DNA of 64,000 bases from Candidatus Tiamatella incendiivivens (lineage in GTDB: Archaea; Thermoproteota; Thermoprotei_A; Sulfolobales; Acidilobaceae), in assembly GCA_015522635.1 (NCBI GenBank), contig WALW01000019.1, positions 1 to 64,000 on the forward strand, in the 5' to 3' direction. This document shows, one piece after another, positions 53,451-64,000 of the stretch. The notes under the pieces are model-generated. The model ran no database searches, was not told where the DNA came from, and worked only from the letters and a program-made list of their open reading frames with translations. The translations under genes and the position numbers were made by a program. Position 1 is the stretch's first letter, and each line of letters starts with the position of its first letter.

Positions 53451-54086
53451 TTGAGCTTACTCGAAGAAATCCGTGAATGGCTTGAGAAAGGCGTAGAAGA
53501 AGCCCAAGATATCTCTGAGATATCATGGGATGTAGGAGAAATAAAGGATCCAAAGATAAAAGGCCTCATTGCTGTTAACCCGAAACTTCCTGTAAAGCTT
53601 TATATAACCGATAACGAGGAATTTAACACGATAAGAATCACTGTTCCGACAGGTGTATTAACAGCCGATCTCCCCCCAGGGGATAAACTCAAAATCTATA
53701 GAGCCCTGCTTGTACTTAACAAAACCCCCCTAGCCAAGATATACATTGATGGTATCAATGGAGAAGTAGTTGTTGCATCCGATCTAAGCACTAAGACACT
53801 AGGAGAGGATGAGTTCCATGACTCCATAAGCTTCACAATAAGTACAGTTATATCACTCTATAATAGATTCGGGCTTCCGAAGGACGTTAGAGTTGAGATG
53901 CTTGAGAATCTAGTATGGCTTATTCAGAGAAGGCTGCAGAAAGGATGGAGTAGGGAGAAACTCGAAGAATTCCTCGTTAATAAAGTTGGTATGGGTAAAC
54001 CGGAAGCTGAGCATCTACTTGAGACAATATTTCCGACCAAGAAAAAAGAAAAGAAACCCGGTGTTTCCGAACAAATGTACATGTAA
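53451..54086 (+). CDS. Hypothetical protein
   Basis: This protein has about 211 residues, beginning MSLLEEIREWLEKGVEEA. The first half is beta-rich (PVKLYITDNEEFNTIRITVP), the second half helical, with a C-terminal helical bundle (RRLQKGWSREKLEEFLVNK) and a lysine-rich tail. TTG 53451 follows GCGGGTGA. There is no membrane span or catalytic motif. I do not recognise the family; it looks like a conserved archaeal soluble protein. Confidence 0.75.
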   Translation: MSLLEEIREWLEKGVEEAQDISEISWDVGEIKDPKIKGLIAVNPKLPVKLYITDNEEFNTIRITVPTGVLTADLPPGDKLKIYRALLVLNKTPLAKIYIDGINGEVVVASDLSTKTLGEDEFHDSISFTISTVISLYNRFGLPKDVRVEMLENLVWLIQRRLQKGWSREKLEEFLVNKVGMGKPEAEHLLETIFPTKKKEKKPGVSEQMYM

Positions 54087-54154
54087 TATTCATATTACAT
54101 CCCATCTTTTTTAGAGATGATCTCCATAAATAGACTCTTAGGAGTTGTTAGTGA

Positions 54155-55759
54155 TTGAAATCAAGGAAAATAGGGTTCCCAGAGGCCTTCGCTATAGGAG
54201 TCGGTGGAATGATAGGTGGTGGCATCTTTGCAGTTTTAGGATTAAGTATATCAATTAGCAAATATGGCGCGCCAATCGCATTTATGGTTGCGGGACTCGT
54301 GGCTATAGCAACAGGGTACAGCTACGCCAAACTGTCAGTTAGATATCCCAGCAGAGGAGGAACTATAGAATTCGTTGTGAAAGGCTTTGGATCTGGGGTT
54401 TTTTCCGGAGGCCTAAACATCCTATTATATCTAAGCTATACAGTCATGATAGCATTATACAGCTTCGCCTTCGGACACTACGCTGCTGCAGCTTTCAACG
54501 CTGGTTACCCGTGGCCTCAGATCTTTTCAGTAATTGTCATACTAGCATTCACATCAGTAAATGCACTCGGCGCATATGTCAGCGGAAAAGTTGAGGATTT
54601 ACTCGTATATATAAAACTGAGTATACTCCTCATAGTAGCTGGAGTAGGATTCCTATACGTAAACTATTCAAAGCTCTCTCCAGGTAACTGGCCTTCTAAC
54701 ATTAATATAATAGCCGGCGGAATGTTAATCTTCGTTGCATACGAAGGCTTCGAACTCATCGCAAATGCCTCACAAGACGTTTATGACCATAGAATTATTC
54801 CTAAAGCACTGTATTCATCCATTATCGTTACAACACTAATTTACATTGGAATAGCGATAGTCTCAGTTGGCGTTCTTCCATTAAGCGAAGTTATAAAAGC
54901 AAAAGACTATGCTCTTGCAATAGTAGCCAAACCCGTCCTCGGATCTGCTGGATTCTGGTTAGTTATAATAGGTGCGCTTCTATCCACTGCAAGCGCTATA
55001 AACGCTACTTTATATGGCACAGCTGGCATAACATACCTTATCTCAAAAATAGGATACCTTCCATCCGAACTAGAGAAAACATTATGGAAAAATGCGTCGG
55101 AAGGGCTGTTCTTCATTGCCATTATGTCGATAATACTCGCCGTTTATGCGCCACTCCAAACAATATCAGTAATTGGAAGCCTAGGCTTCCTTACAGTATT
55201 CACGAGTGTAAATATAACTGCATATCGCCTTAGGAAGGAGGCGAAGGCCAACCCATATATTGGCTTAGTAGCGATATTATTATCATCATTCTCACTGGGC
55301 GTACTAATATATAACCAAGCCCGTAGTAGTCTAGGTTCACTTCTCCTATTCCTAGGAGTGTTAAGCGGTGGTTTCCTATACGAATATTTATATAGAAATG
55401 TGACCGGTCGCAGAATACATGAATACGTTGATGAAAACCTAGAAAAAAGAATTAAGCTAATTGATGAATGGAGAATATGGGTGCCCCCATTCATTTCCGA
55501 GCTCAAGAAACTAACCGGTGAAGCTAAATTTTACCTGATCGGTAGTATAGCCAGGGGGGAGAAAGCTATATCCCATGATATTGATATACTTGTTGTAATG
55601 GAGAAGAAGCCTAGTGAGAAGAAGCAAAGGATCCTAGTAAACAACGCAATAAACAACGCCGGTCTCACATCTCTTCATCCCATTCATATTCACTTCGCTT
55701 CAAAAGAAGAGGAAGAAGAATACAAGTCTCGAAGCAAGAAGTATCGTAAGCTAGATTAA
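54155..55759 (+). CDS. APC-family amino-acid permease fused to a nucleotidyltransferase domain
   Basis: Residues about 1-415 form an APC-type permease with around twelve hydrophobic spans and the family motif GVGGMIGGGIFAVLG in the first span. The C-terminal cytoplasmic part (about 430-534) contains YLIGSIARGEKAISHDIDILV, split here as GSIARGEKAISH and DIDILV. That is an exact G-S-x10-D-x-D nucleotidyltransferase motif of the minimal MNT type, with a following KKPSEKKQRILVNNAINN helix. One continuous frame links the two. The transferase half may modify the transporter or sense nucleotides; this is inference. TTG 54155 lacks a strong GGTG site. It overlaps the opposing nuclease gene by 9 bases. 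Confidence 0.88.
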   Translation: MKSRKIGFPEAFAIGVGGMIGGGIFAVLGLSISISKYGAPIAFMVAGLVAIATGYSYAKLSVRYPSRGGTIEFVVKGFGSGVFSGGLNILLYLSYTVMIALYSFAFGHYAAAAFNAGYPWPQIFSVIVILAFTSVNALGAYVSGKVEDLLVYIKLSILLIVAGVGFLYVNYSKLSPGNWPSNINIIAGGMLIFVAYEGFELIANASQDVYDHRIIPKALYSSIIVTTLIYIGIAIVSVGVLPLSEVIKAKDYALAIVAKPVLGSAGFWLVIIGALLSTASAINATLYGTAGITYLISKIGYLPSELEKTLWKNASEGLFFIAIMSIILAVYAPLQTISVIGSLGFLTVFTSVNITAYRLRKEAKANPYIGLVAILLSSFSLGVLIYNQARSSLGSLLLFLGVLSGGFLYEYLYRNVTGRRIHEYVDENLEKRIKLIDEWRIWVPPFISELKKLTGEAKFYLIGSIARGEKAISHDIDILVVMEKKPSEKKQRILVNNAINNAGLTSLHPIHIHFASKEEEEEYKSRSKKYRKLD

Positions 55760-59169: not shown

Positions 59170-60231
59170 TCAATTCTTTTTTTCATTCTTAACTAAATCA
59201 TATTTCCATAAAGTCAGCGGAGAGAGCCCGTTCTCTTTCATAGGGCAGATCTTACCCTCCTTGACTCTCAACAAAGCAGTTGAATATCTCTCCGCGTCCA
59301 GGAGAACAGTTAAGAAAAAGACAGCTAAACCAGCATCGGAACCGAACCTTTTCAAAAACTCCTCTTCTACACTATCAGGTTTAGGCGGGACTCTATAAGC
59401 ATAGGATGCCAATCTAATCGTCCATCTGTCAAGGGGGGGAAATCTAAATCTCCCATATGCAAGGAGGGTTGCTAATCTAGAAGAATACTGGCCAAAGCCT
59501 TTCACTTGTTTTAAGGTATAATAGAACTTATCTGGGCTCGAGGTATCCACTTGACCGGAAGCGAAACTATATGCAAGTACTAGGAGAGTATTGGCACGAT
59601 AACCTAATCCCGTTATCCCCCTCAGCTCCTTGATTTGTTTCTCTATTTCTCTTTTCACTAAAGGAAGCCTGTTCATCATCTCATATCTTCTTATGCATTC
59701 ATCTGGACCATGGAAAAGCCCCCTGTAACCAGTAAGTTTACAGAGCATTCGGGCGGGATCGTAAAGGATATATATATCCCTCCCGAGGAGCCTCTGAATA
59801 TCGCTGTAGTGTGCTATTAGCTTAGCCAGAGATCTCCATGCTAGTGCAAAGCTATTGTTCTGTTGTGCTAAAGCTACAATCGCCGCGTTCCAGTGTGATA
59901 ATCTCCTTATCCTGAGGCTCCCATATTCCTCAGCACATCCGAGGAGAGGATCACCTCTCGTTGCCTCAACAAATTTTTGTATATTATCAAAGTAACCTAG
60001 CGCTATCTTTATTCTCCGGACGACATTGTCACTGCATACGAATCTTTTAATTACAGCATTCCCCTTATTCGATATTCTGATTACAGTCGTATCTTCATGC
60101 ATGGAGTCGGTTCGTTCTACTAGAAAAGCAGTATTCCCAGTATAATAGAAGTTAAAATTGTAAGTAGACAATATCCTTGGCGGACTATAATTCGCCGACG
60201 CCTTTATGGAGCCGCATGTCGTTAGTAGCAA
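59170..60231 (-). CDS. HhH-GPD DNA glycosylase-like protein
   Basis: The C-terminal half of this 353-residue protein has ITGLGYRANTLLVLAYS, the helix-hairpin-helix loop VKGFGQYSSRLATLLAYG, and the conserved aspartate in FRFPPLDRW. This is the core of base-excision glycosylases such as AlkA or OGG. No Fe-S cysteine cluster is seen, so it is not Nth/MutY. The first 36 residues to MHEDT may be extra leader; the start is uncertain. It diverges from the RND gene. Confidence 0.8.
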   Translation of the reverse strand: MLLTTCGSIKASANYSPPRILSTYNFNFYYTGNTAFLVERTDSMHEDTTVIRISNKGNAVIKRFVCSDNVVRRIKIALGYFDNIQKFVEATRGDPLLGCAEEYGSLRIRRLSHWNAAIVALAQQNNSFALAWRSLAKLIAHYSDIQRLLGRDIYILYDPARMLCKLTGYRGLFHGPDECIRRYEMMNRLPLVKREIEKQIKELRGITGLGYRANTLLVLAYSFASGQVDTSSPDKFYYTLKQVKGFGQYSSRLATLLAYGRFRFPPLDRWTIRLASYAYRVPPKPDSVEEEFLKRFGSDAGLAVFFLTVLLDAERYSTALLRVKEGKICPMKENGLSPLTLWKYDLVKNEKKN

Positions 60232-60316
60232 AGACCAATCACAAGTTTGATGTATTGCCTTGCTGTAATATTATAATCTAATCTCATGGTAAAGTATAGG
60301 AGTAATGTTTTTAATC

Positions 60317-60339
60317 ACTATATCGAATATCGATATAGT
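60317..60339. promoter_or_regulatory. 23-bp palindromic operator upstream of the RND exporter gene
   Basis: ACTATATCGA, spacer ATA, TCGATATAGT form a perfect 10-bp inverted repeat. It lies 30 bases before the start codon, between a TATA-like GTTTTTAAT (60307-60315) and the ribosome binding site AAGGTGA (60357-60363). That is the typical place for a repressor of TetR, PadR or MarR type to block transcription. The regulator is not identified. Confidence 0.7.
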
Positions 60340-60368
60340 TTGGATAGAGATATAACAAGGTGACCAGC

Positions 60369-63300
60369 TTGGGTGCATCACACTTTATAGCAAGGAAACC
60401 CTTGCTAATTATCGCAATATGGTTCATAATAGCCGCCGCATCAGCACCATTATTCATGAAGCTGGACAATGTTCTAGTAACGCAGGAACAAGGGCTACTC
60501 CCACCTAATACAGAGAGCCAACAGGCAGAGAAGTTGCTTAAAAATATAACTGGAAGTACTGGGGAAAGCTCTGCTATTATCCTAGTAGATAACGTTAATG
60601 TATCGTCTCCCGATACAGCGTTGAAAATGGGCTTATGGTACATGAATGAAAAGCAGGAACTATCCAAGTATGCAGAGAAAACTATGGGTTATCCTGTAAT
60701 AATTGCAGAAGTCTACAACAGTATTAGAAACCAATCACACAAGGGGCTCAACCAGTCCGTCTTTACGGTCACGAAAAGCATTGAGGCAGCAGAAATTGTG
60801 AATAAAACAATACAGAACGCCTGGCATTTAGATTATGCTCTATTCGATGGAACGAAAGATACTCAGAAACAATTATTACAAGCAGATAGAGCGTATGTTA
60901 ATGTTTACGGAAACCTAACCCTTCTCAGGCAATCCTATCTAAATCTCAATAATACTGTATACGCGCTATCATACGCTTGGAATACTATACCCGACTTATA
61001 CAGTAAAACGTGGTTTGATATTAGTAGAACTAATTACTTCCTTATGACGAATACCACTGCTTATCAAACGGGCAACTTGACACCTAGCGATATAGCTTTA
61101 GTAGCAAAGCTAACTAACACCACCGGAATAGGTTCCGTTAACCCTGAAGCAGTTGCATTATACTATAAGCTGATAATGAATATGACTCAAGGCAATCCGC
61201 TGAATGCTGATTATAAAATTATATCTCAAGCTACAATGCTAGTATGCCTTCAGAAAATGCAGCAGCAAGGGAATGCTCGAAACATTCAAATGATTGAGGG
61301 CGCATTAAAGGCCTATGATACTGTGTGGGAGAAATCTCTCGAGATAGCAAATCTTACTAATCTACCTTACCTATATCAATTCATAAGCCAGCAAAACATA
61401 TACAATGTCATAAAGGACGTTGAATCTAAGTCGACACCATATGCGATTAAGGCGTTCTCAGCAGTCATGGCCGAGGGAATGGCCGTAAAAACAAGGATCA
61501 ACTCTACTCTCCTAGTAAAATTCATAGAAAACGCCAGCAACCTCAAATACCCCCCAGACCCCTCAGATGCCGACAAACTGATTTCAGGTCTGCTTATCTC
61601 CAATGCTGGCACGGAGGAGGAAAAATCGTTCCTAGCACAAGCTCTTACACTGGTTTCTAAACGAGATCCTGCGCCTCAGGACGCACTCAAAATGATAATG
61701 TATACTATAGAAAAGGAAACCGAGAATCCAGGGATAGCTGCAAATATGGGTTCAATACTAGCACATTATGACCCACAAGCCAACGGGGCGATTTTAACTA
61801 ACAATGAGACATTAGCCAATGGTGTAGCTGACTTGTTTACAGTGATGGCTCCCGCTAATCTGACGTCGATACTAAATACGACCATGATACACGAGATTGT
61901 TTACTCATTTGCCCGTATTATAGGTGGAAAGAATATTACAGAGAATGAGGCTTTATCAGCTATTAACCAGACATATAATATTATTATCAAAGAATTCAGC
62001 AAAGAAGTATTAAACAAAACACCGGAAAATTCTAGGCCTTTTATGTTATATTTATTCAATGCAGCTGGAAACTCCGGTATCTACAGTTACAATATAAGGC
62101 AAATACTAATGAGTTTTCTGGTAAAACAAGTTGGAAACTTGCCTGCTGAAGAAGTAAATGGTAATGTACCGGTAGAACTTATTAAAGCAAATCTATGGGA
62201 GGCGTTCAACGTCGCATACTATCATAATGAAACATTCGATGTAGCCGTTGAGAAGCTCAGTAAACAAACATTCTATAATACTTATGGAGAACTGCTCGAT
62301 TCGTTGAAAGGAAATGCTATATCGAATGATGCCATGGCCTTTATAGTAACACTAAAGCCGTATGCTAAACCAAGCGAGGAGGATCCCACGTATTATTATC
62401 AGGCTGAGAACTTTACTCAAATAGTAAACAATTCCCTGAAGAATTATGTTAAGAATTATAAGGTATATCTGACTGGTTCTGGAATAATAGAATACGAAAC
62501 ACACCAGCTTACAGGTAAGGATATGAAACGGGTTGATATCCTTAGCAACACGATGGTTGTGATATTCCTGTTCCTAGTCTTAGAGAGTATTGCCGCGGTA
62601 ATTATACCGTTTATAGGTATTTTAGTTGCTATTCTTATTGCAGGGGCATTGGCATATCTAATTGTGACAGGCGGAATCATTGACTTGTCTTCTTGGGCTA
62701 GAGTTGTGATGATAACTACAAGCCTGGGGTTGGGAGCAGACTATGCTGGATTCATATCGTATAGGTTTAGAGAGGAATTCCATAATATTAAGGACTCCAA
62801 GCTGGCTGCAGAGAAAGCGCTATCAAGAACATACACAGCAATATTAACCAGTGCTACAACAGCCATCATCGGCTTCGGTAGCCTATCCCTTGCCCATGAC
62901 TTCCCATTCCTGTTAAGCTTCGGAGTAGCAATACCACTGGCAATATTCGTAACAATGCTAGCTGGAGTCACTCTTATCCCAGCCCTACTATCTCTGCTAG
63001 GAGGCCACAGTAAGTTCTGGTGGCCTAAAACTCCAGAGAAACTATCTGTGAGAGCTAGGAGTTGGCTAGGAGGAAAAGTAGTTAAATACGCTAAGATAGT
63101 AATCATAGTATGGATACTGGTTTCAATTCCATCGGCATACGCATATGCGACATTTAAGGGAAGCAATAACATGCAAATATTCCTACCTGAGAATAGTGAA
63201 GCTGTAAAAAACTTCAACATAGTATCCGAGAAATTCGGTGCTGGAATTATATACCAAACATACATTGTCGTTGAATTGAATGAACCATGGAATACTACTA

Positions 63301-64000
63301 ATTCCATTAACTCTTTGAAGATTATGGATCATATACTGAAGTCTAAAGACTACGTAGCCGGTGTCTCAGGACCACTTGAGTATGTCAACTCAACGAAAAT
63401 ACTAGGCTCATGTGAAGCTAATCCGTATGTTAATAAGGATGGTACACTACTGTATATTTCGGTTTTCCAAAAAGATAATCCACTCAGTAACAAAGGAATT
63501 AACGAGGTTAAGGAACTGAGAGAAACGCTCCACGCCATCAATCTAGGAACTAGTGTAAAGAAGGTTCTCGTAGGAGGTACCGCTGCATCTATGCTAGAAA
63601 TGGAAAGCCTGTTAAACGAAAGATTCTACCATAGGGTTCTACCAGTAGCAGTTATATTAATGATTATAGCTTTTGCAATAGCTTTCAACAGCATAGTAGC
63701 GGCATTAGCCGCCATAACGGTCATTGTGACATCCGCTATGATAGCTATAGCTAGTACCGAGATAATATTCCAAGACTGGATAGGTAAACCTGTCTTATGG
63801 TTCTTACCGATAATGGTTCTAACCGCAATTCTAGGAGTCGGTATGGACTACAACAGCTTCTATCTAAGTAGAGCAAAAGAAGAATGCCTTAAGAAATGCA
63901 GTGACAATAGTATAATACTAGCTACAGCCAGGGTGGGATTGCTCGTATTCGGGCTCTCCCTAATACTCGGTAGCGCATATTTATCAATGATATCATCCCA
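60369..64000 (+). CDS. Large RND/MMPL-family membrane exporter (3' end outside window)
   Basis: The frame is open from TTG 60369 to the end of the window (more than 1,210 codons). After an N-terminal transmembrane helix (about 11-27) comes a very large extracytoplasmic region (about residues 30-725) rich in N-glycosylation sites. Five membrane spans follow, with the MMPL motif GADYAGFISYRFREE (about 790), then a second helix, a smaller ectodomain of about 130 residues, and a second transmembrane block with GMDYNSFYLSRAKEE. The paired aspartates are the proton-relay residues. The second half is complete only to the third or fourth span. AAGGTGA lies 5 bases before the TTG. Confidence 0.92.
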   Translation, partial: MGASHFIARKPLLIIAIWFIIAAASAPLFMKLDNVLVTQEQGLLPPNTESQQAEKLLKNITGSTGESSAIILVDNVNVSSPDTALKMGLWYMNEKQELSKYAEKTMGYPVIIAEVYNSIRNQSHKGLNQSVFTVTKSIEAAEIVNKTIQNAWHLDYALFDGTKDTQKQLLQADRAYVNVYGNLTLLRQSYLNLNNTVYALSYAWNTIPDLYSKTWFDISRTNYFLMTNTTAYQTGNLTPSDIALVAKLTNTTGIGSVNPEAVALYYKLIMNMTQGNPLNADYKIISQATMLVCLQKMQQQGNARNIQMIEGALKAYDTVWEKSLEIANLTNLPYLYQFISQQNIYNVIKDVESKSTPYAIKAFSAVMAEGMAVKTRINSTLLVKFIENASNLKYPPDPSDADKLISGLLISNAGTEEEKSFLAQALTLVSKRDPAPQDALKMIMYTIEKETENPGIAANMGSILAHYDPQANGAILTNNETLANGVADLFTVMAPANLTSILNTTMIHEIVYSFARIIGGKNITENEALSAINQTYNIIIKEFSKEVLNKTPENSRPFMLYLFNAAGNSGIYSYNIRQILMSFLVKQVGNLPAEEVNGNVPVELIKANLWEAFNVAYYHNETFDVAVEKLSKQTFYNTYGELLDSLKGNAISNDAMAFIVTLKPYAKPSEEDPTYYYQAENFTQIVNNSLKNYVKNYKVYLTGSGIIEYETHQLTGKDMKRVDILSNTMVVIFLFLVLESIAAVIIPFIGILVAILIAGALAYLIVTGGIIDLSSWARVVMITTSLGLGADYAGFISYRFREEFHNIKDSKLAAEKALSRTYTAILTSATTAIIGFGSLSLAHDFPFLLSFGVAIPLAIFVTMLAGVTLIPALLSLLGGHSKFWWPKTPEKLSVRARSWLGGKVVKYAKIVIIVWILVSIPSAYAYATFKGSNNMQIFLPENSEAVKNFNIVSEKFGAGIIYQTYIVVELNEPWNTTNSINSLKIMDHILKSKDYVAGVSGPLEYVNSTKILGSCEANPYVNKDGTLLYISVFQKDNPLSNKGINEVKELRETLHAINLGTSVKKVLVGGTAASMLEMESLLNERFYHRVLPVAVILMIIAFAIAFNSIVAALAAITVIVTSAMIAIASTEIIFQDWIGKPVLWFLPIMVLTAILGVGMDYNSFYLSRAKEECLKKCSDNSIILATARVGLLVFGLSLILGSAYLSMISS

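Follow-up and report, generated by a model that had tools for sequence, protein, structure and literature searches.

The perfect inverted repeat at 60317-60339 of the window (the whole stretch of DNA analysed, 64,000 nucleotides in length) is very probably the operator through which an exporter-padR operon regulates itself and would be bound by the operon's own PadR protein acting as a repressor, with binding, repression, co-transcription and release by a ligand all to be taken as predicted. The type of circuit, a repressor placed on its own exporter operon, is ordinary and well known. With this assignment, an unannotated palindrome becomes part of a regulator-operator pair that can be tested, in a lineage of hyperthermophilic archaea for which the literature searched yielded no characterised PadR regulator and no paper on archaeal PadR-MMPL pairs, and the operator together with the repressor's ligand would point to the cargo of the exporter.

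The main candidate operator, to which no strand is assigned, reads ACTATATCGA-ATA-TCGATATAGT, that is, two perfect arms of 10 bp around a spacer of 3 bp, 23 bp in total. The preliminary description of this DNA had placed a perfect 10-bp inverted repeat with a 3-base spacer between a TATA box and a start codon, and the sequence confirms it at these positions. Its core is TATC-N7-GATA, with half-sites at 60321-60324 and 60332-60335 whose centres are 11 bp apart. On the + strand, the exporter operon has a BRE/TATA-like promoter element at 60302-60315 (GTAATG TTTTTAAT); GTAA...TTTAAT is invariant in three species, and the TATA-like box TTTTTAAT itself, at 60308-60315, is kept in the congeners. The palindrome begins one base past this box and ends at about the predicted start of transcription, which is placed near 60338 from the usual archaeal spacing between TATA box and start. 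A Shine-Dalgarno sequence, GGTGA (60359-60363, + strand), precedes the codon TTG at 60369-60371, which is probably the start of the exporter and is preferred over GTG 60360 because the starts of the congeners align at 60369; GTG 60360 overlaps the Shine-Dalgarno sequence.

Among perfect repeats with arms of at least 10 bp and a spacer of at most 10, the palindrome is the only one in the 64-kb window. Chance expectation was derived from dinucleotide shuffles of the window, which gave 0.75 such repeats per window (0.38 for spacers of at most 3); for the intergenic stretch of 137 bp, the chance of containing one came to 0.003. With up to 3 mismatches allowed, the palindrome is still present as a single copy in the window, with 0 expected. 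Genome-wide counts were obtained by pattern searches with the 16 specified bases of TATATCGA-N3-TCGATATA, and the 1.45-Mb genome holds a single copy, the next best place carrying 2 mismatches in these 16 bases; the search for further copies that had been proposed earlier has thus been run, and many random copies are excluded. Uniqueness in the window is by itself modest evidence and not overwhelming, and the palindrome is significant because of its position and its conservation.

The exporter gene, of the RND/MMPL family, runs on the + strand from 60369 to 64000 and continues beyond the window end, and its frame of 1257 aa matches Pfam MMPL with an E of 2e-55. It shares MMPL domains with the MmpL/HAE3-type RND exporters (TIGR00833 and TIGR00921, E 1e-47 to 1e-67) but scores under the cut-offs of these subfamilies. 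The gene for a PadR-family regulator of 165 aa lies outside the window on the same + strand, at 64141-64638 in contig numbering (L016:5142-5639); it starts 7 bp past the exporter stop and 141 bp beyond the window end, and was therefore invisible when the preliminary description was made. Its protein scores 68.5 bits against Pfam PadR, above the cut-off of 27, and a profile search matches it to LmrR/PadR structures, with Rv3488 among the PadR structures it is grouped with. The AlphaFold model (pLDDT 83) matches PadR structures with Z about 13, and the predicted helices and strands (H10-23, H30-39, H49-61, E65-68, E77-80, H82-114 and H123-151) give, at the level of the model, the winged helix-turn-helix and long C-terminal dimerisation helix of the PadR fold. 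A search of genome contigs found only two congeners and distant bacterial PadR fragments. Identity of the PadR protein to the two congeners is 80% and 72%, and the recognition-helix region GPSTIYPILHRLE is invariant.

Among named genomes, those of Candidatus Tiamatella sp. and of a Desulfurococcales MAG are nearest, and both congeners retain the glycosylase-like gene, the exporter, padR and the palindrome. The site reads ACTATATCGAATATCGATATAGT here, AACTATATCGGCTATCGATATAGTT in G002 and ACTATATCGAAAGACGATATACT in G001, where a single change falls in the outer right arm and the half-sites are otherwise retained. Across the three-species alignment ACTATATCG...CGATATA is retained, the middle five bases are variable and the flanks have diverged; because the half-sites are kept amid a variable middle and diverged flanks, the pattern resembles the footprint of a protein dimer and is as expected of a dimer-bound operator.

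Across 48 genomes of the family, an exporter followed directly by padR is a common arrangement, and a search of these genomes for the full site gave full matches in the genus only. Outside the genus, matches with 1-2 mismatches to the full site were about as frequent as those of a reversed-pattern control, so the half-sites and their spacing were tested out of sample; the strict consensus CTATATCG-N5-CGATATAG scored poorly in the other genera, and the shorter TATC-N7-GATA core was therefore submitted to a spacing scan. When spacings of 0-15 were scanned in the out-of-genus promoters, the summed best TATC...GATA match had its maximum at a spacing of 7, precisely that of the window site. TATC-N7-GATA was matched at 7 or more of its 8 positions in 7 of 13 out-of-genus exporter-padR promoters, compared with 3 of the 95 promoters drawn as controls from the same genomes (Fisher 1e-5, with loci within genera not independent). 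N7 was the best of 14 spacings tested, and otherwise only a weaker N9 signal came near; weaker enrichment over controls was also seen at other odd spacings, partly from TA-rich promoters. One exporter-padR pair of another genus (L128) carries a perfect TATCGGTAGCCGATA, which that genus' exporters without padR lack. A good N7 match was not found in the exporter-padR promoters L057, L059, L073, L074, L075 and L077 of other genera, and the exporters L062, L069 (perfect) and L090 have a TATC-N7-GATA-like site yet no adjacent padR; these sites are perhaps controlled by a padR encoded elsewhere.

In published cases, PadR operators take the form of inverted repeats located in the regulators' own promoters and in those of exporters, and their half-sites are separated by near one helical turn (PMC3506622, PMC5428041, PMC5050560). 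The palindrome is likewise an inverted repeat in the promoter of an exporter-padR operon, and the 11 bp between its half-site centres amount to about one helical turn, compared with 12 bp for the canonical N8 spacing (PMC5428041). The canonical half-sites ATGT/ACAT (PMC3506622) are absent from the palindrome, whose half-sites are TATC/GATA, and the claim is therefore lowered to a site that would work like a PadR operator with a non-canonical half-site; other tested PadR operators deviate from the canonical form too, that of cdPadR1 having TACT/AGTA (PMC5050560). Literature on PadR with ATCGAT motifs turned up only primer sequences.

Sites closer to the canonical half-site were seen elsewhere. 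The window holds a further strong inverted repeat, ATGTAATAT-TC-ATATTACAT at 54081-54100, which lies shortly 5' of a 534-aa frame at 54155 and has ends, ATGT/ACAT, similar to the canonical PadR half-site. In another family of the order, the exporter promoters L061 (about 1980-2005) and L063 (about 1880-1905) carry ATATGT-CTGAAACAA-ACATAT directly 5' of the exporter start. This ATGT-N9-ACAT site is close to the canonical PadR form, and a convergent padR lies downstream.

A PadR dimer on the palindrome would set one winged helix-turn-helix on each half-site, and TATC/GATA cores about one helical turn apart would fit such a dimer. As the site adjoins the TATA-like box and extends to about where transcription is predicted to start, a dimer bound directly downstream of TATA would block the recruitment of RNA polymerase. 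The product of the second gene, padR, would then keep its own operon repressed until a ligand, perhaps the exporter's substrate, loosened PadR and allowed exporter and repressor to be made together, as for LmrR. A possible second, weaker operator box (60336-60354, no strand assigned; TAGTTTGGATAGAGATATA, 9/12 core positions) lies 17 bp downstream of the main site in the same register and overlaps its right arm, and a second dimer on it might cover the start region. The right half of this box, AGATATAA, is invariant in three species, and in the promoters of relatives a 17-bp tandem shift between boxes scores best of 24 shifts, which is suggestive only. Tentatively, and with more doubt than confidence, the design may be extended to a Pyrodictiaceae-wide PadR operator, in which two tandem TATC-N7-GATA boxes with a 17-bp period lie between TATA box and start codon and PadR, as sensor of a signal from membrane or lipids, controls the RND exporter through them; if true, archaea would have an operator architecture not described before.

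The preliminary description had named TetR, PadR or MarR as the repressor at an exporter operator. Of these, PadR is supported, with padR in the same operon, the site conserved with the operon in the genus and a degenerate form of it in other genera, and TetR and MarR appear to fall away, the operon's regulator gene being a PadR; no cognate TetR or MarR gene adjoins the site, the flanking genes being a divergent glycosylase-like gene and a convergent gene that, on reading its sequence alone, resembles a DNA methyltransferase. It is improbable that a different regulator, either another PadR-like protein encoded in this genome or a trans-acting factor of TetR/MarR type, binds the palindrome: the genome encodes at least three further PadR-like proteins and a similar motif occurs at some exporter genes lacking an adjacent padR, but the adjacent padR is conserved together with exporter and site, and by eye no matching palindrome is seen in the promoter of L018, the next best PadR. 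An activator that recruits TFB has to bind upstream of the BRE, and the palindrome sits downstream of TATA, the position of a repressor. We accordingly regard an activator site, or a PadR acting here as activator, as a little less probable again, even though activation is known for some winged-helix regulators and archaea do have activators, such as TFB-RF1, which recruits TFB at weak BRE elements (PMC5937170).

A hairpin formed by the 5' leader RNA, serving as attenuator or protection element, is very unlikely and was rejected. The 10-bp stem could form at 37 C (predicted -9.9 kcal/mol), but it is predicted to be unfolded at 85 C, pairing is weaker in the congener G001 (-5.2) although the half-site sequences are conserved, and the predicted start near the 3' end of the palindrome would leave most of it untranscribed. 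Least probable of all is a palindrome arisen by chance in an AT-rich intergenic region: the shuffled sequence does yield about 0.4-0.75 such repeats per 64 kb, but the low probability for this very stretch, the conserved position of the site across three species whose flanking sequences have diverged and the related sites in other genera speak against it. The operator of the operon's own PadR is thus the preferred reading.

The divergent gene (59170-60231, - strand) has no Pfam or NCBIfam match, and its product is only weakly similar to AlkA 3-methyladenine DNA glycosylase, so it possibly represents an undescribed glycosylase-like family. The suggestion made earlier that this gene might also respond to the palindrome is possible but unsupported: a conserved TATA-like element of its own, ATTATAATCT, lies at 60270-60279 (+ strand), separated from the palindrome by about 40 bp, and the gene adjoins the exporter in this genus only, not in other genera with the exporter-padR pair.

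Among characterised systems, LmrR-lmrCD of Lactococcus lactis (PadR-s2; PMC5428041, PMC4534193) is comparable in that both regulators are PadR winged-helix proteins and that LmrR acts on inverted repeats to repress a drug exporter together with its own gene; the fold of LmrR also matches the model of the present PadR. That system differs in its ABC exporter, separate lmrR promoter and ATGT-N8/10-ACAT half-sites, whereas an RND/MMPL exporter, a single predicted operon, TATC-N7-GATA half-sites, an archaeal promoter and a longer two-helix C-terminal part are found here. cdPadR1 of Clostridioides difficile is a similar case, a PadR that regulates its own expression and has two inverted-repeat boxes in its promoter, with recognition helices about 34 A apart; it differs in its TACT/AGTA half-sites with an 11-12 bp spacer and in its bacterial promoter, and no RND partner is described in the portion of the report available (PMC5050560). 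Within the archaea, RosR of Halobacterium (PadR-like fold, 6ez1/6qfd) has a winged-helix fold similar to that modelled for the present PadR, with Z about 12 at about 15% identity.
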